DNA from: Krasilnikovia cinnamomea
GTDB lineage: Bacteria > Actinomycetota > Actinomycetes > Mycobacteriales > Micromonosporaceae
Length of the DNA: 64,000 nt
Direction: 5' to 3'
Assembly (NCBI RefSeq): GCF_004217545.1
Contig: NZ_SHKY01000001.1
Location: forward strand, 1-64,000
Part shown: one piece after another, positions 18,001-32,490 of the stretch
Position numbering within the stretch: position 1 is the stretch's first letter
Layout: every line of letters begins with the position of its first letter
Position numbers and translations under genes: made by a program
The notes under the pieces: model-generated
The model's database searches: none
What the model was told of the DNA's origin: nothing
Seen by the model: only the letters and a program-made list of their open reading frames with translations

Positions 18001-18066
18001 CCACCGCAGCGAGCCCCCCAACCCAACCGACACCACAGCCACAGCCCCTCCCGCCTCGCACGCGAG

Positions 18067-18259
18067 CCCACGGACCCAGAAGCCACGGACCCACGGACCC
18101 ACGGACCCAGAAGCCACGGACCCACGGAGCCAGAAGCCACGGAGCCACGGACCCAGAAGCCACGGAGCCACGGAGCCACGGAGCCACGGACCCACGGACC
18201 CACGGAGCCCCGGAGCCCCGGACCCACGGAGCCACGGAGCCACGGCGCCGGAGCCACGG
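18067..18259. repeat. 9-bp minisatellite (CCACGGA[G/C]C units)
   Basis: About twenty imperfect copies of CCACGGAGC or CCACGGACC, interspersed with CAGAAG variants, directly after the PfkB gene. The unit is a multiple of three, so antisense frames read as Gly-Ser-Val-Ala-Pro-Trp-type repeats, but there is no start signal or domain to support a protein. Confidence 0.85.
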
Positions 18260-18330: not shown

Positions 18331-18770
18331 CGATGTCGAAGACTTCGGGTCCGCCCCGCACCCAAACCCTCCAAGATCCGACTGGCCCCCGCAGCCACGC
18401 TACGCACGCCATCAACAAGGGCAACGTCGAAGACTTCGGGTCCACCCCGCGCCGAAACTCTTCAAGATCCGGCTGGCGGCCCCCTGGCTCCGATGTCCAC
18501 GCCAGGCACGACCCCAAGAAGGCAATGTCGAAGACTTCAGGTCCGGACCGCACCGAAACTCACCAACATCCAGCCAGCACCCCCGCGTCCCACGCCACCC
18601 ACGCCACCGACAAAGGCAATGTCGAAGACTTCGGGCCCGGTCCGCACCGAAGCTCACCAAGATCCAGCCAGCACGCCCACGCCACCCACGCCATCAACCA
18701 AGGCAATGTCGAAGACTTCGGGTCCGGTCCGCACCGGGACTCTTCAAGATCTGGGTGGGGCTTCGTGCGG
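18331..18770. repeat. Five tandem copies of a roughly 95-bp repeat
   Basis: Each copy opens with GTCGAAGACTTCGGGTCCG or a close variant, then a CGCACCGAAACTC-type block and TTCAAGATCC or CACCAAGATCC. A less conserved GCCACCCACGCCA stretch and GGCAAT lead into the next copy. Core starts: 18335, 18426, 18527, 18621, 18708 (spacing 91, 101, 94, 87 bp). CGAAG-a-CTTCG inside the core is a small palindrome. Spacings are not multiples of three, so the reading frame is not preserved between copies, which argues against coding. The array fills the convergent intergenic space between the PfkB gene and the MDR gene. Confidence 0.9.
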
Positions 18771-22424: not shown

Positions 22425-23309
22425 ATGCGCCTGGTGTCCCTGCTGCCGTCCGCCACCGAGATCGTCTACGCGCTCGGGCTCGACGAAAACCTGGTCGGCG
22501 TGACCTTCGAGTGCGACGAGCCGCCCCGGGCCCGCGCCGACAAGGCCGTCGTGGTCGGGGGCCGGGACACCCGCGGGATGGACCCGGCCGAGATCGACAC
22601 GTACGTGAAGAGCCAGCTCGCCGCGGGCGGTGACCTGTACACGTTGCACGCCGACGCCCTCGCCGGCCTGGATCCGGACGTGATCCTGACGCAGGACCTG
22701 TGCCGGGTGTGCGCGCTGCCGTCCGGGCAGGTCTCCGACGCGCTGACGCATCTCGGCTGCCGGGCGGACGTCGTATCCCTCGACCCCTACACGCTGGAGG
22801 AGGTGCTGGGCACGATCGCCGAGGTCGGCGCCCGCACCGGCGTGCCCGAACGCGCGGCGGCGCTGATCACGGCGCTGCGCGCCCGGCTGGCGACCGTCGC
22901 GGCGGCCGTGGCGGGGCGCCCCCGGCCCCGGGTGGCGGTCGTCGAGTGGGTGGATCCACCGTTCACCGCCGGGCACTGGGTCCCGGACCTGGTCACGGCC
23001 GCCGGCGGGGAGCCGGTCGCCGCCCGCCCCGGCGCGAAGTCCGTCGAGACCACCTGGGCGGAGCTGGCCGCCGCCGCGCCGGACGTCGTGCTCGTCACGC
23101 CGTGCGGGTTCCATCTCGACGGGGCGGCCGGCCAGGCGCGGCACGTCGTTGCGCACTTCCCGGGCGCTCAGGTGTGGGCGGTCGACGGCGACGCGCTGGT
23201 GGTGCGGCCCGGCCCGCGACTGGTCGACGGCGTGGAGGCGATCGCGGCGGCGCTGCACCCCGGCACCGTCCCCACCCCACCCCCGTCCGCGATCACCCGC
23301 ATCGCCTGA
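22425..23309 (+). CDS. Cobalamin-binding-protein-like (BtuF fold), without signal peptide
   Basis: 294 aa, periplasmic-binding-protein fold PF01497: MRLVSLLPSATEIVYALGL, VGVTFECD, ILTQDLCRVCALP, and the C-terminal VVLVTPCGFHLDG and WAVDGDALVVRPGPRLVDGVEAI. It starts directly with the first beta strand, has no signal peptide or lipobox, and has no BtuCD genes beside it. It is therefore probably a cytoplasmic member that binds cobalamin or a related ligand. ATG 22425 has no convincing Shine-Dalgarno and may be leaderless. The 268 bp before it is shared with the divergent small gene and shows no clear operator. Confidence 0.82.
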   Translation: MRLVSLLPSATEIVYALGLDENLVGVTFECDEPPRARADKAVVVGGRDTRGMDPAEIDTYVKSQLAAGGDLYTLHADALAGLDPDVILTQDLCRVCALPSGQVSDALTHLGCRADVVSLDPYTLEEVLGTIAEVGARTGVPERAAALITALRARLATVAAAVAGRPRPRVAVVEWVDPPFTAGHWVPDLVTAAGGEPVAARPGAKSVETTWAELAAAAPDVVLVTPCGFHLDGAAGQARHVVAHFPGAQVWAVDGDALVVRPGPRLVDGVEAIAAALHPGTVPTPPPSAITRIA

Positions 23310-23499: not shown

Positions 23500-24312
23500 T
23501 CAGGCGCTGACGGAGGCGGGGATGGGGGCGGGCTGGCGACGCCGAACCGGGACGGCCAGCGGGGTGGTGTGGGTTGTGGCGGCGACGGTCGCGCGGTGGG
23601 CCCGCTCGGCGCGCCACAGCCATGCCGAGTCACGGACGAACGACCAGGTCAACGACACGAGGGCGGCGGCGACCACGACCAGGTTCACCGAGGCGGGCAG
23701 GATGCCCGCCGTCGCCACGACCAGCGCCACGCCCTGGGCGGCCGCCACGACCTTGCGGGAGAATCGCGGGGGCAGCGCGCGGTTCATCCACGGCAGCGCC
23801 CAGGAGGCGGCCACGAACACGTACCGGTACGCCCCCATCGCGACCGTCCACCAGCCCAGCGGCCCCGCCACGTACACGCTCAGGACCAGGATGAGGAACG
23901 CGTCGACCTCCATGTCGAACCGCGCGCCCAGCGCGGTCGTCGAGCCGGTACGCCGCGCCACCTGGCCGTCGACACCGTCCAGCGCCAGCGCCACCCCGAC
24001 CAGGGCGACCAGCACCGCGGTCGGCGCGGGACGCTCGAACGAGTACGCGACCAGGGCCGTCACCCCGCCGACCAGCAGCGCCCGGCTCAACGTGACGAGG
24101 TTCGCCGCGCCCAGCCGGCGCAGCCCGGTCCGGCGCGCGCCGACCACCAGCGCCCCGGTCAGGACCGCCCCGTACGCGAGGCCCGCCAGCCAGCCCACGG
24201 CGCCGATGCCGACCGTGGCCGACAACGCCGCCAGCAGGGCGAACAGGACGACCAGCCCAGCGGCGGCACCTCGAGACGGTGCGTCCGGGGCCGTTGCTCT
24301 TCCGATCGTCAC
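23500..24312 (-). CDS. CDP-alcohol phosphatidyltransferase family membrane enzyme
   Basis: 270 aa, integral membrane. It contains the complete family motif DG-x2-AR-x8-G-x3-D-x3-D, reading from DGQVARR to FDMEVD. These enzymes transfer a phosphatidyl or other CDP-linked group to an alcohol. GTG at 24310-24312 is chosen for the GGAGG 4 nt upstream; a much longer open frame upstream has no signal. Six or more hydrophobic helices are visible. It diverges from the MDR-PTPS-GT-MT operon and is treated here as part of that locus, perhaps attaching the product to a lipid; this is inference. Confidence 0.87.
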   Translation of the reverse strand: MTIGRATAPDAPSRGAAAGLVVLFALLAALSATVGIGAVGWLAGLAYGAVLTGALVVGARRTGLRRLGAANLVTLSRALLVGGVTALVAYSFERPAPTAVLVALVGVALALDGVDGQVARRTGSTTALGARFDMEVDAFLILVLSVYVAGPLGWWTVAMGAYRYVFVAASWALPWMNRALPPRFSRKVVAAAQGVALVVATAGILPASVNLVVVAAALVSLTWSFVRDSAWLWRAERAHRATVAATTHTTPLAVPVRRRQPAPIPASVSA

Positions 24313-24569
24313 GGTTCCTCCGATGTCTGGCGCGGCCTCCTGCCGCCGTCCTGAGAGAACACGCTCGCATCCGGCGAACGGTTCAGCGGGCGGGCGAGAA
24401 ATCCGGTTCCCCCGTTCCCCTGCGCGAGTGAGCCGGATGCCCGCCCCGGCCGCCGTGAGCCGGTTCACCCGCCGCCATGATCGCTGGCGGCTATGGTGGC
24501 CCCCGGACAGCGCCGCCCGGCCCGTCCCATCCACCACGATCGGGCCGTACCCCGAGCGAAGGAGACGCC

Positions 24570-25553
24570 GTGAGCACCGCCCGCGCGTTCTGGCTGGCCG
24601 CCCCCGGCGTCGGTGAGCTGCGCAACGAGGCCGTGCCCGAGCCCGGTCCGGGCGAGGTACTGGTCCGCACGCTGTACTCCGGGGTGAGTCGCGGCACGGA
24701 GACGCTGGTGTTCCGGGGCGGGGTCCCGGACAGCCAGCACGCCGCGATGCGCGCCCCCTACCAGCTGGGCGACTTCCCCGCGCCGGTCAAGTACGGCTAC
24801 CTCAACGTCGGGGTGGTCGAGCAGGGCCCCGCCGAGCTGACCGGCCGTACCGTCTTCTGCCTGTACCCGCACCAGACCCGCTACGTCGTGCCCGCCGACG
24901 CCGTCACCGTGGTGCCGGCGGGGGTGCCGGCGGCCCGGGCCGTGCTGGCGGGCACCGTGGAGACCGCGGTCAACGCGCTGTGGGACGCGGCCCCGCTGGT
25001 CGGCGACCGGATCGCCGTGATCGGCGGCGGCATGGTCGGCTGCGCGGTGGCGGCGGTGCTGGCCCGGTTCCCGGGCGCCCGGGTCGAACTCGTCGACGCC
25101 AACCCGGCCCGGGCGGAGATCGCCGACGCGCTCGGTGTGGGCTTCGCGCTGCCCGCCGAGGCGGCCGGCGACTGCGACCTCGTAGTGCACGCCAGCGCCA
25201 CGTCGGCGGGGCTGACCCGGGCCCTGGAACTGCTCGCGTTCGAGGGCACGGTGGTGGAACTGAGCTGGTTCGGCGACCGGCCGGTGAGCGTGCCGCTCGG
25301 CGAGCAGTTCCATTCGCGGCGGCTCACCGTACGCAGCAGTCAGGTCGGCGCGGTCGCCCCGGCCCGGCGCGCCCGGCGCAGCTACGCCGACCGGCTGGCG
25401 CTGGCGCTGGGCCTGCTGCGCGAACCGGCCTTCGACGCGCTGCTCACCGGCCGGTGCCGGTTCACCGAGCTGCCCGAGGTCATGCCCCGGCTGGCCCGCG
25501 GCGACATCGACACCCTGTGCCACCTCGTGACCTACGACGATTCCGGAGAGTGA
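24570..25553 (+). CDS. MDR-superfamily (zinc-binding-type) dehydrogenase of the GTP-derived cluster
   Basis: 327 aa. N-terminal GroES-like domain: [28 protein letters not shown]. Rossmann domain: [20 protein letters not shown] (GxGxxG-like) and an acidic VDAN that may favour NAD. The usual GHE zinc motif and the structural four-cysteine lobe are absent, so it is an atypical MDR. The SRGTE segment is shared with MDRs of secondary pathways. GTG 24570 follows AAGGAG by 7 nt. Its stop overlaps the start region of the PTPS homologue. First gene of a five-gene run; it probably oxidises or reduces an intermediate of the pathway. Confidence 0.8.
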
Positions 25554-25558
25554 ACCCT

Positions 25559-25957
25559 GTGTTCAGCGTCACCGTCCGCGACCACATCATGGTCGCCCAC
25601 AGCTTCACCGGCGAGGTGTTCGGGCCCGCGCAGCGGCTGCACGGCGCCACGTTCGTGGTGGACGCCACCTTCCGCCGCGCCGAGCTGGACGCCGACAACA
25701 TCGTCGTGGACATCGGCCGCGCCCTCGAGCAGCTGCACGCCATCTGCGGCGCGCTCAGCTACCGCAACCTCGACGACGAGCCCGACTTCGCCGGCGTCAA
25801 CACCTCGACCGAGTTCCTCGCCAAGGTGATCGCGGACCGGCTGGCCGACCAGGCTCGCGCGGGCGGGCTCGGCGCGGGCGCCCGCGACCTGACCGGCATC
25901 GCGGTCACGCTGCACGAGTCGCACATCGCGTGGGCGAGCTACGAGCGGACCCTGTGA
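25559..25957 (+). CDS. Divergent 6-pyruvoyltetrahydropterin synthase/QueD-fold protein
   Basis: 132 aa, T-fold. Kept: first zinc His (His14 in MVAHSF), second (His28 in RLHGATF), the NTSTEFLAK pterin-site segment (81-89) and the pterin-anchoring Glu120 in LHESH. Changed: the catalytic Cys of CxxxHGH is Ala24, the third zinc His is Ala30, and the catalytic Asp-His pair of LDHxxLN reads LSYRNLD (Ser67-Tyr68). It should still bind a pterin-like ligand but cannot use the known PTPS or QueD chemistry. GTG 25559 is chosen for GGAGAG 8 nt upstream; GTG 25550, overlapping the previous stop, is the alternative. Stop overlaps the glycosyltransferase start. Confidence 0.85.
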
Positions 25958-27027
25958 GCCGCCCACGCCGGGCCGCCCTGTACGTCGCGCTGCCCGGCGA
26001 CATCGACGACCCCGCCGCACCGAGCGGCGGCAACCACTACGACCGCCGGGTCTGCGACGGGCTCGCCGCCGACTTCGACGTCCGTGAGCTGGCGTTCCCG
26101 GGCGCCTGGCCGCGCCCCGGCCCGGCCGCGGAACGGGCCCTCGCCGACGCGCTGGACGAGCTTCCCGACGGTGCCGACGTCCTGCTGGACGGGCTGCTGG
26201 CCGGGGTGCCGGACGTGCTGGTGCCGGCCGCGCGGCGGCTGCGGCTGATCGTGCTGGTGCACCTGCCGCTCGGCGACGAGACCGGGCTGGCGCCCGCGGA
26301 CGCGGCCATCCTGACCGAACGCGAGCGGCGTACGGTGCAGGCCGCGTCGGCGGTCGTGGCCACCAGCAGGGCGGCCGCGCGCCGGGTGGCCACGGTGCAC
26401 GGCCTGGACCCGGCGCACGTCCAGGTCGCCGCTCCGGGCGTCGAACCCGCGCCCGCGGCGTCGGCTTCCTCGGCGGGGACGCGGCTGCTGTGCGTTGCCG
26501 CCGTGACCCCGCGCAAGGGTCACGACGTGCTGGTGGAGGCGCTGGCCCGGGTCGCCGACCTGGCCTGGGAGTGCCGCTGCGTCGGGGACATGGACCGGCA
26601 GCCCGAGTTCGCGGCGCAGGTCCGCGCCCGGGCCGCCGACCTGGGGCCCGGGCGATTCCAGCTGCTCGGCACCCGCAACGGGTCCGCGCTGGCCGCCGCC
26701 TACGCCGCGACGGACCTGCTGATCCTGCCGTCGCGTGCCGAGACCTACGGGATGGTGGTGACCGAGGCGCTGGCCCGCGGCGTCCCGGTGCTGGCCTCCC
26801 ACCTGGACGGCGTGGCCGAGGCGATCGGCTGCGCCGAGGCGCTCAACGGGGCGCCCGGGCTGCTGGTGCCGCCCGGGGATCCGGCCGCGTTGGCCGCGGC
26901 ACTGCGGGACTGGCTCACCGACGCCGAGCTGCGCGAGCGGTTGCGGGCGGCGGCGGCCGCGCGCCGGGCGGCGTTGCCCGGCTGGGATGTGACGGTCCGG
27001 GAACTGACGAAGGTGGTTTGCGCATGA
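25954..27027 (+). CDS. GT4-family glycosyltransferase
   Basis: 357 aa, GT-B fold retaining-type transferase. An N-terminal acceptor domain contains [16 protein letters not shown]. The C-terminal donor domain has [20 protein letters not shown], the E-x7-E region [27 protein letters not shown], and [16 protein letters not shown]. It transfers a sugar from a nucleotide donor; the acceptor is unknown. GTG 25954 overlaps the PTPS-homologue stop (GTGA), and its own TGA overlaps the next ATG (ATGA), so translation is coupled through three genes. The context suggests glycosylation of the pathway's pterin/pyrimidine or a lipid carrier. Confidence 0.9.
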
Positions 27028-27815
27028 GCGGCGAGTTCAGTACGGCATGGCTGACGCTGCGGGAACCGGCCGACGCCGACGCCCGCGCCGAGGACCTGCT
27101 CACGCCGCTGCGCGCGGCCCTCGCCGGCCGGGCCAAGCCGGTCGTGCGGGACCTCGGCTGCGGCGCCGGGTCGCTGGCCCGCTGGCTCGGCCCGCGACTC
27201 GACGGCCCGCAGCACTGGGTACTGGAGGACCGCGACCCCGACCTGCTGGCGTACGCGGCGGCCCATCCGCCCGCCGGGGCCAGCGTCGAGACCCGGGTGG
27301 GCGACGTCACCCGGCTCACCGCGGCCGACCTGGACGGCACCGACCTGGTCACCTGTTCCGCCCTGCTCGACCTGCTCACCGAGGCGGAGGTGGCGGAGCT
27401 GGCGCGGGTGTGCGCCGAGGCCCGGTGCACCGCCCTGTTCACGCTGTCGGTGCTCGGCGAGGTGACGCTGGAACCCGCCGACCCGCGCGACGCCGCGGTC
27501 GTCGACGCCTTCAACGCCCACCAGCGACGCACGGTCGGCGGGCGGCGCCTGCTGGGCCCGGACGCGCCCGCGGTCGCCGCGGACGCCTTCGCGGCCCTCG
27601 GCGCCGAGGTGACCGTACGGCCGAGCCCGTGGCGGCTGGGGCCGCAGCAGGCGACGCTGACCGAGCAGTGGCTGCGGGGCTGGGTGTCCGCAGCCGCCGA
27701 ACAGCGGCCTGAGCTGGAGTTCGACGCGTACCTGGAGGCGCGGCTGGACGCCGTGCGGGCCGGAACTTTGCGCGCCACGGTCGGCCATGCGGACCTTCTC
27801 GCGATCTTCAACTGA
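27024..27815 (+). CDS. Class I SAM-dependent methyltransferase
   Basis: 263 aa. SAM-binding motif I VVRDLGCGAGSLARWL (about residues 35-50), acidic motif II WVLEDRDPDLL, and a motif IV-like DGTDLVTCSALLDLLTEAEV. Later segments include the HQRRTVGGRRLLGPDA block. Soluble and small-molecule-like rather than RNA-type. ATG 27024 overlaps the glycosyltransferase stop. It probably methylates the product or an intermediate of this cluster; the target atom is unknown. Confidence 0.87.
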   Translation: MSGEFSTAWLTLREPADADARAEDLLTPLRAALAGRAKPVVRDLGCGAGSLARWLGPRLDGPQHWVLEDRDPDLLAYAAAHPPAGASVETRVGDVTRLTAADLDGTDLVTCSALLDLLTEAEVAELARVCAEARCTALFTLSVLGEVTLEPADPRDAAVVDAFNAHQRRTVGGRRLLGPDAPAVAADAFAALGAEVTVRPSPWRLGPQQATLTEQWLRGWVSAAAEQRPELEFDAYLEARLDAVRAGTLRATVGHADLLAIFN

Positions 27816-27869
27816 ACCTCGCGCGCGGACTCGGCGTACTAGTGCCTGGAGGACGACGAAGGGGGCAAC

Positions 27870-28934
27870 GTGGCGAGAACGGTCTGGGCATGGGCGCGGG
27901 TGCTCGGTGGTGCGGGCATCATCGCGCTGCTGCTGTGGCGGCTCGGCACGAGCGCGTTCCTGGACGGCCTGCGGGTGATCGACGGACCCACCCTGCTGGT
28001 CGCGTTCCTCATCGGCGTGGCGACCACGGTGTTCAGCGCGTGGCGGTGGTGCCTGGTGGCCCGGGGGCTGGGGCTGCGGCTGTCGCTGCGCGCCGCGGTC
28101 GCGGACTACTACAAGGCGCTGTTCCTCAACGCGGCGCTGCCGGGCGGGGTGCTCGGTGACGTCGACCGGGCGGTCCGGCACGGCCGGGACGCGGGCGACG
28201 TGGGCCGGGGCGTCCGGGCCGTGGTGCTGGAGCGTACGGCGGGACAGATCGTGCTCGTCGGCGTCGGCGTCACGGTGCTGCTGACCGTACCGTCTCCGGT
28301 GTTGACGCAGCTCAAAGCGCACAGCACCGCGGTCGCGGTGACCACCGCAACCGTGCTGGGCACCGCCGCCGTGGTGCTGGCGGCCTGCGCCCGGGTGCGC
28401 CGCGGCACCTCGCGGTGGGCCCGTGCGGCCCGCACCGGCCTGGGTGAGGTCCGCGACGGCCTGCTGGCGCGGCGCAACCTGCCCGGCGTGCTGCTGGCCT
28501 CGGTCGTGGTGCTGGCCGGGCACCTGGCGACGTTCGTGGTGGCGGCCCGCGCTGCCGGGTCGTCGGCGCCGCTGCTGCGGCTCGCCCCGCTGATGCTGCT
28601 GGCCCTGCTGGCGATGACCCTGCCGGTGAACATCGGTGGCTGGGGTCCCCGCGAGGGCGTGACCGCGTGGGCGTTCGGCGCCGCCGGGCTCAGCGCCACC
28701 CAGGGCCTCACCATCGCCGTGGTGTACGGGCTGTTCGCGTTCGTGGCCAGCCTGCCGGGCGCGGCGGTGCTGCTGTCCCGGGCGGTGCGGCGCGCCCGGT
28801 CGGCCGCGCCGGCCCTGCCGGACGCCGCTGCGGCCGTCCCCATCTCCGTCCCCGTGCCCGCACCGGCGGCGGTGCGGGTCGTGCCCGAACCGGTCGCGGT
28901 GCCGGTCCGGCTGCTGGCGCACTCCGGTGCGTGA
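27870..28934 (+). CDS. LPG-synthase-TM/YbhN-type membrane protein (flippase-like)
   Basis: 354 aa with about eight hydrophobic helices. It belongs to the UPF0104/lysylphosphatidylglycerol-synthase transmembrane family: SAWRWCLVARGLGL, YYKALFLNAALPGGVLGDVDRAVRHGRD, VVLERTAGQ, and MTLPVNIGGWGPREGVTAWAFGAAGL. Members flank glycolipid and polyprenol pathways and are thought to move lipid-linked molecules. GTG 27870 is preceded by a G-rich site. The C-terminal tail is a Pro/Val/Ala-rich low-complexity stretch. It follows the methyltransferase gene by 54 bp and probably belongs to the same transcript. Confidence 0.85.
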   Translation: MARTVWAWARVLGGAGIIALLLWRLGTSAFLDGLRVIDGPTLLVAFLIGVATTVFSAWRWCLVARGLGLRLSLRAAVADYYKALFLNAALPGGVLGDVDRAVRHGRDAGDVGRGVRAVVLERTAGQIVLVGVGVTVLLTVPSPVLTQLKAHSTAVAVTTATVLGTAAVVLAACARVRRGTSRWARAARTGLGEVRDGLLARRNLPGVLLASVVVLAGHLATFVVAARAAGSSAPLLRLAPLMLLALLAMTLPVNIGGWGPREGVTAWAFGAAGLSATQGLTIAVVYGLFAFVASLPGAAVLLSRAVRRARSAAPALPDAAAAVPISVPVPAPAAVRVVPEPVAVPVRLLAHSGA

Positions 28935-28938
28935 CGCC

Positions 28939-29631
28939 TCAGGTCGCCGGGAAGCGGTCGGACAGCGCGTAGCGCAGCAGCACCACGTCGCCGATCTGCC
29001 GCACCTCGGCCAGGGTGGCGCGGCGCTGCGGTCCCCACGGGAACGCCGCGTCGTAGACGAAGCGTGGCGCCCGCGAGTCACCGACGAAGAACGGCGCGAC
29101 CACCAGCTGCAGCTCGTCGGCCAGGCCCGCGGACAGGAACTGGGTGTGCATGGTGCCGCCGCCCTCGACCATCAGCTTGCGCACCCCGCGGGCGTGCAGG
29201 TCGGCGGTCACCCGGCGCAGGTCCACCGGTTCGCCGCCGTCGATCACGGTGGCGACGTGTCCGAGCAGCTTGTGCGCCTCCTCCACCGCGGGGCTGGCGC
29301 AGTAGACCAGCTTGTCCACGTCGCCGGCGGTGAAGAACTGGGCGGCCGCGTCCAGCCCGCAACTGCTGGTGACGGTGACCTTCACCGGAGTCGGTTCGTG
29401 ACCGTCCGCGACGCGCTCGCGGCGACGCCGCGCGGAGCGCACGAGCAGTCGCGGATTGTCCTGGCGGATCGTCCCGGCACCCACCAGGATGGCGTCGCAG
29501 CCGGCCCGGACCTCGTCGACGCGGTCGAAGTCCGCGTCGTTGGACAGCAGCAGACGCTCGTCGGTGGCGTCGTCGACGTAGCCGTCGATGGACATGCCGC
29601 AGCTCAACAGAACGTAAGGACGCTCAACCAC
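28939..29631 (-). CDS. RibD C-terminal-type pyrimidine reductase, stand-alone
   Basis: 230 aa DHFR-like reductase domain. SCGMSIDGYVDD at the N-terminus, FDRVDEVRAGCDAILVGAGTIRQDNPRL, and LMVEGGGTMHTQFLSAGLADELQLVVAPFFVG are the hallmarks of RibD_C/RIB7-type NADPH reductases acting on ribosylaminopyrimidine 5-phosphates. No deaminase domain is attached. A reductase alone fits the archaeal and fungal order, in which the GTP cyclohydrolase product is reduced before deamination. GTG at 29629-29631 is chosen for GGAGG 8 nt upstream. Convergent with the membrane-protein gene (4-bp gap) and divergent from the GTP cyclohydrolase II gene. Confidence 0.87.
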   Translation of the reverse strand: MVERPYVLLSCGMSIDGYVDDATDERLLLSNDADFDRVDEVRAGCDAILVGAGTIRQDNPRLLVRSARRRRERVADGHEPTPVKVTVTSSCGLDAAAQFFTAGDVDKLVYCASPAVEEAHKLLGHVATVIDGGEPVDLRRVTADLHARGVRKLMVEGGGTMHTQFLSAGLADELQLVVAPFFVGDSRAPRFVYDAAFPWGPQRRATLAEVRQIGDVVLLRYALSDRFPAT

Positions 29632-29801
29632 CGATGACGCCTCCAGTAGAGCGACGATCGTCACCCCGGTCGAATAGATGCGTCCAAGATAATCCGGTCT
29701 CGGGGTACCGGTACACAGACCACGTGTCGGAGCATGGTGATCTTGATCCTGGGGCACCGTGCGGCACGACGGATTCGCGGGTTCACGTACGAGGAGGGCC
29801 G

Positions 29802-30497
29802 ATGTCAGAAGCAGCGCTGCGCAGGGTGGTGGAGCGCTCGGTCGTGGTGGCGGAGCCCCCGCCGGCCACGGTACGGCGGCAGGTGACCGTTCCGCTGCGG
29901 TTCGCGGACGGATACTCCACCACCGCCCGGGTCCTGACCTTCGACGGCCTGGTCGACGGCCGCGAGCACCTGGCCCTGGGTCTCGGCGAGTGGCAGCGCG
30001 CGCTGCGTCGCGGGGCGGCCGGGGGCCCGGCGCCGCTGGTGCGTCCGCACAGCGAGTGCCTCACCGGCGACGTGTTCGGCAGCCAGCGCTGCGACTGCGG
30101 GCCGCAGCTGCGCGAGGCGGTGGAGCGCATCGCCGACACCGGCGGCCTGCTGCTCTACCTGCGGCAGGAGGGCCGCGGCATCGGCCTGTACGCCAAGCTC
30201 GACGCGTACGCCCTGCAGGAGGCGGGGATGGACACGTACGAGGCGAACGTGGCGCTGGGCCGGGGCGAGGACGAGCGGGACTACTCCGCGGCCGCCCAGA
30301 TGCTGCTGGCCCTGGGCGCCGACCGGGTACGGCTGCTGAGCAACAACCCGGACAAGGCGGAACAACTGGAGGAGCGCGGCGTCGCCGTCTCGGAGCGGAT
30401 CCCCACCGGAGTGCACGTCTCCCCCGCCAACGTGCGGTACCTGTCCACGAAGGTGTCGCACACCGCGCACACGCTGAAGCTGCCGAGCGCGGACTGA
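29802..30497 (+). CDS. GTP cyclohydrolase II, stand-alone
   Basis: 231 aa. Zinc cysteines Cys86, Cys97 and Cys99 lie in HSECLTGDVFGSQRCDCG; the GTP site has LLYLRQEGRGIGL and YEANVALG. Tyr136 in AYALQ matches E. coli RibA Tyr105. One Streptomyces coelicolor paralogue (SCO6655) with Met at this position was reported to stop at the formylated intermediate, so this enzyme is predicted to perform full GCH II chemistry. It is not fused to RibB and no other riboflavin genes are nearby apart from the divergent reductase, so it probably feeds a specialised pathway. ATG 29802 follows GAGGAGG. An extended open frame upstream has no ribosome site. Confidence 0.92.
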   Translation: MSEAALRRVVERSVVVAEPPPATVRRQVTVPLRFADGYSTTARVLTFDGLVDGREHLALGLGEWQRALRRGAAGGPAPLVRPHSECLTGDVFGSQRCDCGPQLREAVERIADTGGLLLYLRQEGRGIGLYAKLDAYALQEAGMDTYEANVALGRGEDERDYSAAAQMLLALGADRVRLLSNNPDKAEQLEERGVAVSERIPTGVHVSPANVRYLSTKVSHTAHTLKLPSAD

Positions 30498-30624
30498 TCC
30501 CGGGCGCCGCGACGGGTGGCACCGGCGCGGCGCCCCGCAGCGGTCGTCGTGCGCAGGGTCGCCCGTCCGGGGCGGGCGTCGTCCACAGGGTCGGCCGGAC
30601 ACTCGTCCGGGTCTCTAGGATCGC

Positions 30625-32490
30625 ATGATGACGTCAGCACCGGTCGGCACGGACGCCGCCATGGACGTGCTCCGCAAGGTCTTCGGCTACCCGGCGTTCC
30701 GGGGGCGGCAGCGCGAGATCATCGACCATGTCGTCGCCGGTGGCGACGCGCTCGTGCTCATGCCGACCGGCGGCGGAAAGTCGCTGTGCTACCAGATCCC
30801 CGCCCTGGTCCGCGACGGCGTCGGCGTGGTGGTCTCCCCGCTCATCGCACTGATGCAGGACCAGGTCGACGCGCTGCGCACCCTCGGCGTGCGGGCGGGC
30901 TTCCTGAACTCGACCCAGGACCTCTCGCAGCGCCGCCTGGTCGAGCGGCAGTTCGTGGCGGGCGAGCTGGACCTGCTGTACGTGGCCCCCGAGGGTCTGG
31001 GGGTGCCCGCCACCCAGCGGCTGCTGGAGTCGGGCCGGATCGCGCTGTTCGCCATCGACGAGGCGCACTGCGTCTCCCAGTGGGGTCACGACTTCCGCCC
31101 CGACTATCTGGGCCTGTCGATGCTGCACGAACGCTGGCCCGACGTGCCGCGCATCGCGCTGACCGCGACCGCGACCACCGCAACCCGGGCCGAGATCGCC
31201 AGCCGGCTGCAGCTGACCGAGGCGCGGCACTTCACGGCCAGCTTCGACCGGCCCAACATCCAGTACCGCATCGTCGCCAAGAACGAGCCCCGGCGCCAAC
31301 TGCTGGAGCTGCTGCGCACCGAGCACTCCGGCGACGCGGGGATCGTGTACTGCCTGTCGCGCGCCTCGGTCGAGAAGACGGCCGAGTTCCTCACCGCGAA
31401 CGGGATCACCGCGCTGCCGTACCACGCGGGCCTCGACGCGGGCACCCGCGCCGCGCACCAGGCCCGGTTCCTGCGCGAGGACGGCCTGGTGATGGTGGCC
31501 ACGATCGCGTTCGGGATGGGCATCGACAAGCCCGACGTCCGGTTCGTCGCCCACCTGGATCTGCCCAAGTCCGTGGAGGGCTACTACCAGGAGACCGGCC
31601 GCGCGGGGCGCGACGGCCAGCCCTCCACCGCCTGGCTGGCGTACGGGCTGCAGGACGTGGTGCAGCAGCGCCGGCTCATCGAGACCTCCGACGGCGACCT
31701 CGCGTTCCGCCGCAACGCCGCCGCGCACCTGGACGCCATGCTGGCGCTGTGCGAGACGGTCTCCTGCCGCCGTGGCCAGGTGCTGGGGTATTTCGGCGAG
31801 TCGGCGCCCGAGTCCTGCGGCAACTGCGACACCTGCCTCGCGCCGCCCGAGTCCTGGGACGGCACGGTCGCGGCGCAGAAGCTGCTCTCCACGGTGCTGC
31901 GGCTGCAGCGCGAGCGGGGCCAGAAGTTCGGCGCCGGGCAGTCCATCGACATCCTGCTGGGCCGCACCACCGCGAAGGTCACCCAGTTCCGCCACGAGGA
32001 GCTGTCGGTCTTCGGCATCGGCACGGAGCTGCGCGAGCAGGAGTGGCGGGGCGTCGTCCGGCAGTTGCTGGCCCGAGGGCTGCTGGCGGTCGAGGGTGAC
32101 TACGGCACGCTGGCGCTCACCGACGGCAGCGCCGACGTGCTGCGCGGCACGCACCCGGTGCGGCTGCGCCGCGAGGCGGAGCGGGTCCGTGCGCCCCGGC
32201 AGGCACGCGCCCGCGAGACAGCGGCGGCGCAGTTGCCGGAGGGCGCCGAGCCGGTCTTCGAGCGGCTGCGGGCCTGGCGGGCCGGGGTAGCCAAGGAGCA
32301 GGGCATGCCCGCGTACGTGATCTTCCACGACGCCACGCTGCGCGCGATCGCCGCGCTGCACCCCACCTCGCTGGAACAACTCGGTACGGTCAGCGGCGTG
32401 GGCGAGAACAAGCTGGCCCGGTTCGGCCAGCAGGTCCTCGACGTGCTCGCCGACACGCGAGCCGCCGCGGACGGGCCCGCGCAGACATGA
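30625..32490 (+). CDS. recQ: ATP-dependent DNA helicase RecQ
   Basis: 621 aa. SF2 helicase core: [13 protein letters not shown] motif 0, Walker [18 protein letters not shown] box [24 protein letters not shown] motif [18 protein letters not shown], and Q-x-x-GRAGRDG-like [11 protein letters not shown]. Zinc cysteines lie at CETVSC and CGNCDTC, then an RQC-like winged helix, then an HRDC domain (about residues 535-610, [21 protein letters not shown]). It unwinds DNA 3' to 5' in recombination and fork repair. ATG 30625 and ATG 30628 are adjacent; AGGA upstream suits the second slightly better. The last codons and stop fall inside a 33-bp tandem repeat. Confidence 0.95.

Follow-up and report, generated by a model that had tools for sequence, protein, structure and literature searches.

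The first 64,000 nucleotides of contig NZ_SHKY01000001.1 from Krasilnikovia cinnamomea, here called the window, contain at positions 23500 to 30497 eight genes arranged around a protein of the PTPS fold. Comparison with related genomes indicates that these genes very likely form one conserved actinobacterial pathway, and we consider it probable that this pathway is a dedicated one that branches from riboflavin synthesis at 2,5-diamino-6-ribosylamino-4(3H)-pyrimidinone 5'-phosphate (APy). The cluster as such is known and its product is unsolved; in the literature searched, where subscription journals were thinly covered, we found no described product for the gene set. The new element is a pattern at the entrance to the cluster, in which the residue at one position of GTP cyclohydrolase II (GCH II) goes together with the presence or absence of a creatininase-family gene, so that two alternative routes to the starting compound appear to precede the same core.

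The case for a single pathway comes from gene neighbourhoods. A profile scan of genome contigs, limited to one genome per species and using an alignment of five PTPS-like proteins as the query, returned at least 497 encoding stretches. Around the best 80 of these at least 497, which are the loci nearest the window's PTPS-like protein and lean to close relatives (Actinoplanes, Streptomyces, Amycolatopsis, Micromonospora, Pseudonocardia and Actinomadura), an MDR dehydrogenase and a GT4 glycosyltransferase were each present 79 times, a CDP-alcohol phosphatidyltransferase 78, a YbhN-type membrane protein 77, a methyltransferase 76, GCH II 67 and a RibD_C reductase 48 times. The outer neighbours of the window's locus served as controls and were found 20 times (RecQ, which follows at 30625) and 16 times (a periplasmic-binding-like protein, which precedes at 22425). 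Adding further neighbourhoods gave 137 clade loci without the window, 118 of them with at least 6.5 kb of sequence to either side of the PTPS gene; in these 118, MDR occurs 118 times, GT4 117, the CDP-alcohol transferase and YbhN 114 each, the methyltransferase 110, GCH II 103, the creatininase-family gene 66 and RibD_C 63 times, as against 19 for RecQ and 15 for the periplasmic-binding protein. MDR, PTPS and GT4 share one collinear arrangement, spanning no more than 4.5 kb, in 133 of 134 loci. All these counts are uncorrected for relatedness; loci of other PTPS groups (L127, L128, L129 and L141) were left out of the clade counts, and L203 and L106, identical in their PTPS DNA, are counted once in the distinct-DNA tallies and in the genome co-occurrence below, and twice elsewhere.

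Co-occurrence at the genome level points the same way. Of 394 genomes sampled evenly across the class, 57 contain the PTPS-like gene (E up to 1e-12) and 58 the MDR gene (E up to 1e-40), the latter comprising all 57 PTPS genomes and one more at 38% identity. The methyltransferase is present in 48 (E up to 1e-20), namely 47 of the 57 and the extra genome already noted for MDR; for MDR and methyltransferase the best five to six candidates per genome were scored, so that an absence of either refers to those candidates, and the three E limits are our own choice. Across a phylum sample of 396 genomes, 80 have a PTPS-like match at E up to 1e-3, and only ten, the window's genome included, match at 50% identity or more. 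A first-pass annotation of this DNA had proposed a comparison of neighbourhoods around the PTPS homologue as a check on its one-pathway reading, and had allowed that similar sets may exist in other actinobacteria; the conserved unit, set against its flanking-gene controls, bears out both. Given the number of encoding stretches and the share of class genomes that hold the gene, hundreds of actinomycete species probably retain the pathway.

The entry pattern centres on the stand-alone GCH II (29802..30497, plus strand; PF00925 GTP_cyclohydro2, 183.6 bits, cut-off 23.3), whose likely start is, by eye, an ATG behind AGGAGG. The protein reaches the cut-off of model NF001591 (254.2, cut-off 148) and misses that of TIGR00505 (182, cut-off 205.85). 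Its switch position is occupied by Tyr (GRGIGLYAKLDAYALQ), a residue which we take to go with formation of APy rather than of FAPy. In many relatives a creatininase-family gene sits close to GCH II, an addition that the first-pass annotation had missed and that is absent from the window's locus. Among 118 full-flank loci (here a different set, which includes the window and requires MDR, PTPS and GT4 matches), 66 of the 68 with a non-Tyr GCH II have the creatininase gene and the remaining 50 have neither, so that 116 of 118 fit; the 14 loci of this kind that lack GCH II likewise lack creatininase. Of ten genomes lacking GCH II at the core, six have just one PF00925 gene, presumably shared with riboflavin synthesis. 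The two exceptions, each a non-Tyr GCH II without creatininase, are L118, where the GCH II half of a fusion protein appears degenerate, and L185, where a creatininase relative of 62% is encoded 13 kb away in the genome. By eye, the usual active-site letters are gone from the GCH II half of the L118 fusion. Counted over 137 distinct PTPS DNAs including the window, loci with creatininase have Met (56), His (6), Leu (5) or Gln (1) and never Tyr at the switch position, loci without it have Tyr (42), Leu (1) or Ser (1), and 25 loci hold neither GCH II nor creatininase, some because their flank is short. A search of nine Tyr-type whole genomes for creatininase relatives (E up to 1e-8) found none in six and distant ones, at 36-39% identity, in three. 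Tyr and non-Tyr types fall mostly into separate clades of the GCH II trees, with L115 and L118 standing apart.

Spoonamore et al., in work of 2006 and 2008, reportedly found that SCO6655 of Streptomyces coelicolor, a Met-type enzyme, makes the formylated product FAPy and that the Met/Tyr residue switches the product. Taken together with this and with the archaeal route, in which FAPy is deformylated, the Tyr/creatininase pattern makes it likely that APy is the common precursor. A paper that cites this work confirms only that changed GCH II activities were reported for three Streptomyces copies (PMC3509567). The other enzyme at the entrance is a stand-alone RibD_C reductase (28939..29757, minus strand; PF01872, 139.9 bits, cut-off 24.1; domain at 28978-29619, the start probably lying inside the open reading frame). 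No deaminase domain was reported in it, in line with the first-pass description, and its best match is the archaeal reductase model TIGR01508, at 144.3 below the cut-off of 186.45. Proteins in which GCH II and RibD_C are fused adjoin the core in L200 (10814-12172) and L118 (14184-15515).

How far the set can be reduced is visible in its most distant members. In f18, a distant family within the phylum, all seven loci with full flanks contain RibD_C, MDR, PTPS-like and GT4 genes; there the other cluster proteins of the window, used as queries, had no match and the lipid genes, that is, those for the CDP-alcohol transferase and YbhN, were found in none of the seven; one of these loci has its own methyltransferase next to GT4. 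Of the genes sought, MDR, PTPS and GT4 stand alone in L130 (full flanks) and in L199 and L202 (both with short flanks), and L200 adds the GCH II-RibD_C fusion; the lipid genes were not found in any of these four. This gene content leads us to regard MDR-PTPS-GT4 as a core that is fed by RibD_C and GCH II and on which methylation and the lipid genes were layered later. In one distant-family cluster, the end of a frame next to RibD_C (L123:9278-10543) resembles dihydroneopterin aldolase (FolB) by eye.

From these comparisons we propose the following course. The Tyr-type GCH II would make APy from GTP, and the RibD_C reductase would turn the ribosyl of APy into a ribityl chain. With no deaminase, the 2-amino-4-oxo ring, which is the pterin half, would be retained. 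The MDR dehydrogenase would oxidize or reduce the sugar chain, and the PTPS-fold protein would bind the pyrimidine or pterin and help to shape it. Glycosylation by GT4 and methylation by the methyltransferase would follow; in the majority of the actinomycete clusters seen, YbhN and the CDP-alcohol transferase would then tie the product to the membrane or move it across. The order of these steps is inferred, and we favour a glycosylated pterin or diaminopyrimidine as the product. That it contains a pterin ring is a tentative proposal, somewhat more doubtful than not, and we hold its lipid linkage in the window's organism to be about equally tentative. An unlikely elaboration would make this a pterin route independent of GTP cyclohydrolase I (GCH I): RibD_C would reduce C1' of the APy ribose and MDR would oxidize C2', giving a 1-deoxypentulosyl intermediate and from it dihydroneopterin phosphate, so that two redox steps would yield the same intermediate as the Amadori shift of GCH I. 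The PTPS-fold protein would handle dihydroneopterin phosphate without zinc, GT4 would glycosylate it, and methylation and lipid fixing would follow. A possible precedent is Chlamydia, where TrpF reportedly gives the GCH II product the same Amadori shift.

Several observations weigh against the proposed course. Tests of independent change give little weight to the entry pattern: on the core tree, all full-flank rows yield four supported pairs (mean 3.8 agreeing, 0 opposed, median p 0.125) and the GCH II-bearing rows two pairs (p 0.5), and the GCH II tree yields two pairs with p 1. All these trees were built by quick methods and carry long-branch warnings; for the test of GCH II-bearing rows, L185 was entered manually as having creatininase, and the all-row test was run both ways with the same result. 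The pattern is thus consistent but not significant, because independent switches are few. The creatininase-family protein is also not an ArfB by score: two members scanned gave 35.3 and 29.3 against the ArfB FAPy deformylase model (cut-off 180), and the best score is with MftE (143.3, cut-off 172), to which the protein is nearer than to ArfB. In 36 of 57 Met-type loci no RibD_C gene lies near the core, and six genomes, by inference Streptomyces, that lack it at the locus have elsewhere only 32-37% matches to the Streptomyces-type RibD_C; given such absences, the reduction step may not be universal. The roles suggested for MDR and PTPS are read from fold alone. As to the family of the creatininase protein itself, one member scores 214.1 against the creatininase Pfam model (cut-off 31.3), and EQHG, TD and DMHAGE are invariant in 69 of 69 rows.

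The PTPS-fold protein (25550..25957, plus strand) was recognized by the first-pass annotation, and its fold and family stand (PF01242, 76.4 bits, cut-off 22.4); overlooked were the loss of catalytic residues and a close kinship with SCO6650. The protein matches PDB entry 3d7j, named Uncharacterized protein SCO6650 (Streptomyces coelicolor), at E 5.1e-66, and this close sequence relation, with the shared context in Streptomyces, places it in the SCO6650 family. Our alignment has 138 rows including the window, 137 with letters at the motif. In all 137, the zinc ligands His 17 and His 31 are conserved; Ala or Val replaces the third zinc His, Ala the catalytic Cys, and Gln or Arg the Glu that precedes HGH in PTPS-III. 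Glu123 is likewise invariant in the 137 rows that have a letter at its position. The QueD model gives 33.4, below its cut-off of 89.25. The distant-family f18 proteins retain HGH in 8 of 8 and have Ala at the Cys position. SCO6650 is said, again by Spoonamore et al. (2006 and 2008), to lack both zinc and PTPS activity.

For the predicted structure of the MDR protein (24570..25553, plus strand; AlphaFold pLDDT 91.5; ADH_zinc_N 28.9, below the cut-off of 31.8), the top Foldseek matches include, alongside many further MDRs, threonine, butanediol, sorbitol and xylitol dehydrogenases, and alcohol dehydrogenases and alkaloid reductases are about equally near (TM about 0.7-0.8). The relation to polyol dehydrogenases is weak by sequence, and a polyol dehydrogenase is a lean of the model rather than a finding. 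A conserved SGVSRGTE stretch has Ser at what we take to be the position of the catalytic-zinc Cys of zinc MDRs, so the enzyme is probably without catalytic zinc. GT4 (25954..27027, plus strand) is assigned by PF00534 Glycos_transf_1 (96.7 bits, cut-off 26.4), and the class I S-adenosylmethionine-dependent methyltransferase (27024..27815, plus strand) by PF13649 Methyltransf_25 (36.8 bits, cut-off 27). A fold search with the predicted model of the latter (pLDDT 95.6) gave no substrate, only general relatives such as phosphoethanolamine, natural-product and lipid methyltransferases (TM to the model 0.43-0.64).

Both lipid genes look, from their distribution, like additions to the core. The CDP-alcohol phosphatidyltransferase (23500..24537, minus strand; PF01066 CDP-OH_P_transf, 51.3 bits, cut-off 22) distantly resembles choline phosphotransferases; its coding character is confined to 23500-24225 and its start is uncertain. 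The YbhN/LPG_synthase_TM flippase-like membrane protein lies at 27870..28934 on the plus strand (PF03706, 117.5 bits, cut-off 33.4). These genes, on which the earlier suggestion of attachment to a lipid drew, are conserved with the rest in the relatives examined, but the f18 loci make attachment no more than a later layer. In 30 of 150 loci the core has nearby a gene for a sulfatase-superfamily membrane protein (PF00884, 40.2 bits; without a sequence match in NCBIfam or PDB), for example at L107:14796-16442, often next to the CDP-alcohol transferase as judged by distance. Among the genomes tested, 9 of the 11 that have the lipid genes, including the window's, encode a relative somewhere, compared with 0 of the 4 that lack them; the protein is perhaps an outer-face phosphotransferase for the lipid arm. 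The neighbourhoods of the two paralogues in the window's own genome were uninformative by eye.

Loss of the third zinc His and the catalytic Cys from the PTPS-like protein would also suit a pathway in which the ring is never closed. Its product would be a (phospho)lipid of a ribosyl- or ribityl-diaminopyrimidine that is glycosylated and methylated, and the PTPS-fold protein would do no more than bind or protect the unstable pyrimidine. This account, close to one option of the first-pass annotation, gains from the frequency of the lipid genes and of the extra sulfatase-superfamily gene, and loses by the failure to find the lipid genes in the distant family and the core-only loci; we regard it as rather unlikely. 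The locus might instead join two unrelated modules, a purine-ring-opening pair and a cell-envelope lipid set, as its three transcription units on two strands and the loci without GCH II or RibD_C would allow. Joint presence over 394 genomes, the near-invariant collinearity of MDR, PTPS and GT4, and core-only clusters that lack lipid genes and still have RibD_C or the fusion make such an accident quite improbable.

GCH II and RibD_C reactions belong to riboflavin synthesis, and the cluster could on that account supply riboflavin or a flavin analogue by raising the flux of APy and ribityl-pyrimidine. We consider this very improbable. None of the eight genes is a deaminase, DHBP synthase, lumazine synthase or riboflavin synthase, and none was recognized by eye among further families present in at least six loci, which were not searched by profile. 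The 7.6-Mb genome, in two contigs, has a separate rib locus at 755-758 kb, where a GCH II domain at 755.5 kb lies within a 408-residue RibBA-like frame, with a RibD_C gene about 1.2 kb away (RibBA and RibD by profile) and neighbours that resemble lumazine and riboflavin synthase by eye. With three PF00925 genes (755.5 kb, 5.06 Mb and the window's locus) and seven RibD_C genes in the genome, GCH II and the reductase are not the sole riboflavin-pathway copies, the finding that the first-pass annotation had named as fatal to its proposal. The PTPS family has two genes in the genome, the other copy being of the CxxxHGH type. Expression of SCO6655 in S. coelicolor is anticorrelated with modelled riboflavin flux (r -0.61), according to one study (PMC2853524). 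Of the earlier proposal of a GTP-derived, modified pterin or pyrimidine, the single pathway is supported by co-occurrence and separate rib genes, and the lipid-linked product stays a tentative element.

As to layout, all eight families named by the first-pass annotation were confirmed at their positions in the window, by Pfam profile or, for MDR, by predicted fold. The overlaps it described are three real 4-base start/stop overlaps, GTGA at 25550 (MDR/PTPS), GTGA at 25954 (PTPS/GT4) and ATGA at 27024 (GT4/methyltransferase), and by eye an AGGAG-like site precedes the likely MDR start. Since the genes for RibD_C and the CDP-alcohol transferase are on the minus strand, the locus must comprise three or more transcription units. 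Ahead of the MDR gene, a GTTCAG[CG]G string (47 of 129; shuffles mean 1.8, maximum 5) was considered as a promoter and rejected; in Streptomyces it lies mostly about 138 bases off, by eye seemingly at the start of the CDP-alcohol transferase gene. Two short tandem arrays lie between genes at 18059-18259 and 18333-18751, with units of 8 and 23 bases plus 4.5 copies of an 87-base unit. An inositol-monophosphatase-family gene, a candidate for removal of the 5'-phosphate, occurs near GCH II or creatininase in all seven Amycolatopsis loci and three others (L078:14670-15470, L073, L084, L086, L097, L103, L110, L116, L177 and L182), and L047 has a 33% relative farther off. Downstream of GCH II, a PAS-SpoIIE-HATPase-STAS regulator gene is found in L044, L046 and 17 more Actinoplanes/Paractinoplanes loci, with four weaker matches outside these genera; in the window, the gap from 30497 to 30625 is too short to hold it. 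At C1:5059400 (L224:6341-6952), beside dehydrogenase- and dehydratase-like genes (by eye), the genome has another stand-alone GCH II of the Tyr type, which shares the GCH II clade of the window's copy.

Among known systems, the nearest is SCO6650-SCO6655 of S. coelicolor, through SCO6650 itself. Other Streptomyces loci have the order PTPS, GT4, methyltransferase, YbhN, creatininase, GCH II, which fits six consecutive SCO numbers; for S. coelicolor itself the gene order is read from this numbering. Streptomyces combines a Met-type GCH II and creatininase with another RibD_C or none, whereas the window has a Tyr-type GCH II, an archaeal-like RibD_C and no creatininase. SCO6652, by its number between SCO6650 and SCO6655 (GCH II) presumably the methyltransferase, is up by 4.3 and 4.1 log2 units at 48 h and 72 h in the second mycelium, as given in PMC3610822. 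This induction suggests a role in differentiation.

The archaeal riboflavin route uses GCH III, a formamide hydrolase and a reductase that acts ahead of deamination. It resembles our scheme in its FAPy/APy chemistry, in that order of reduction and in the reductase that the window's RibD_C matches best; one account describes FAPy, the removal of its formyl group to give APy (called AFRPP and DARPP in that paper) and a reduction that precedes deamination (PMC13028884). Here, in contrast, GCH II takes the place of GCH III, no deaminase is seen, and the relatives' creatininase is not ArfB by score. With the PTPS/QueD family (COG0720) the PTPS-like protein shares the family profile and a conserved Glu, but it lacks the Cys, ExxHGH and HGH, and does not meet the motifs of subfamilies I-III as given in PMC5041015. 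Unlike a riboflavin operon, the eight genes include no deaminase, DHBP synthase, lumazine synthase or riboflavin synthase. Toxoflavin and fervenulin clusters contain GCH II-like, RibD-like and methyltransferase genes. The comparison names a probable entry compound, a three-gene core and optional layers, and so narrows the problem to a small set of enzymes and deletions that can be tested.

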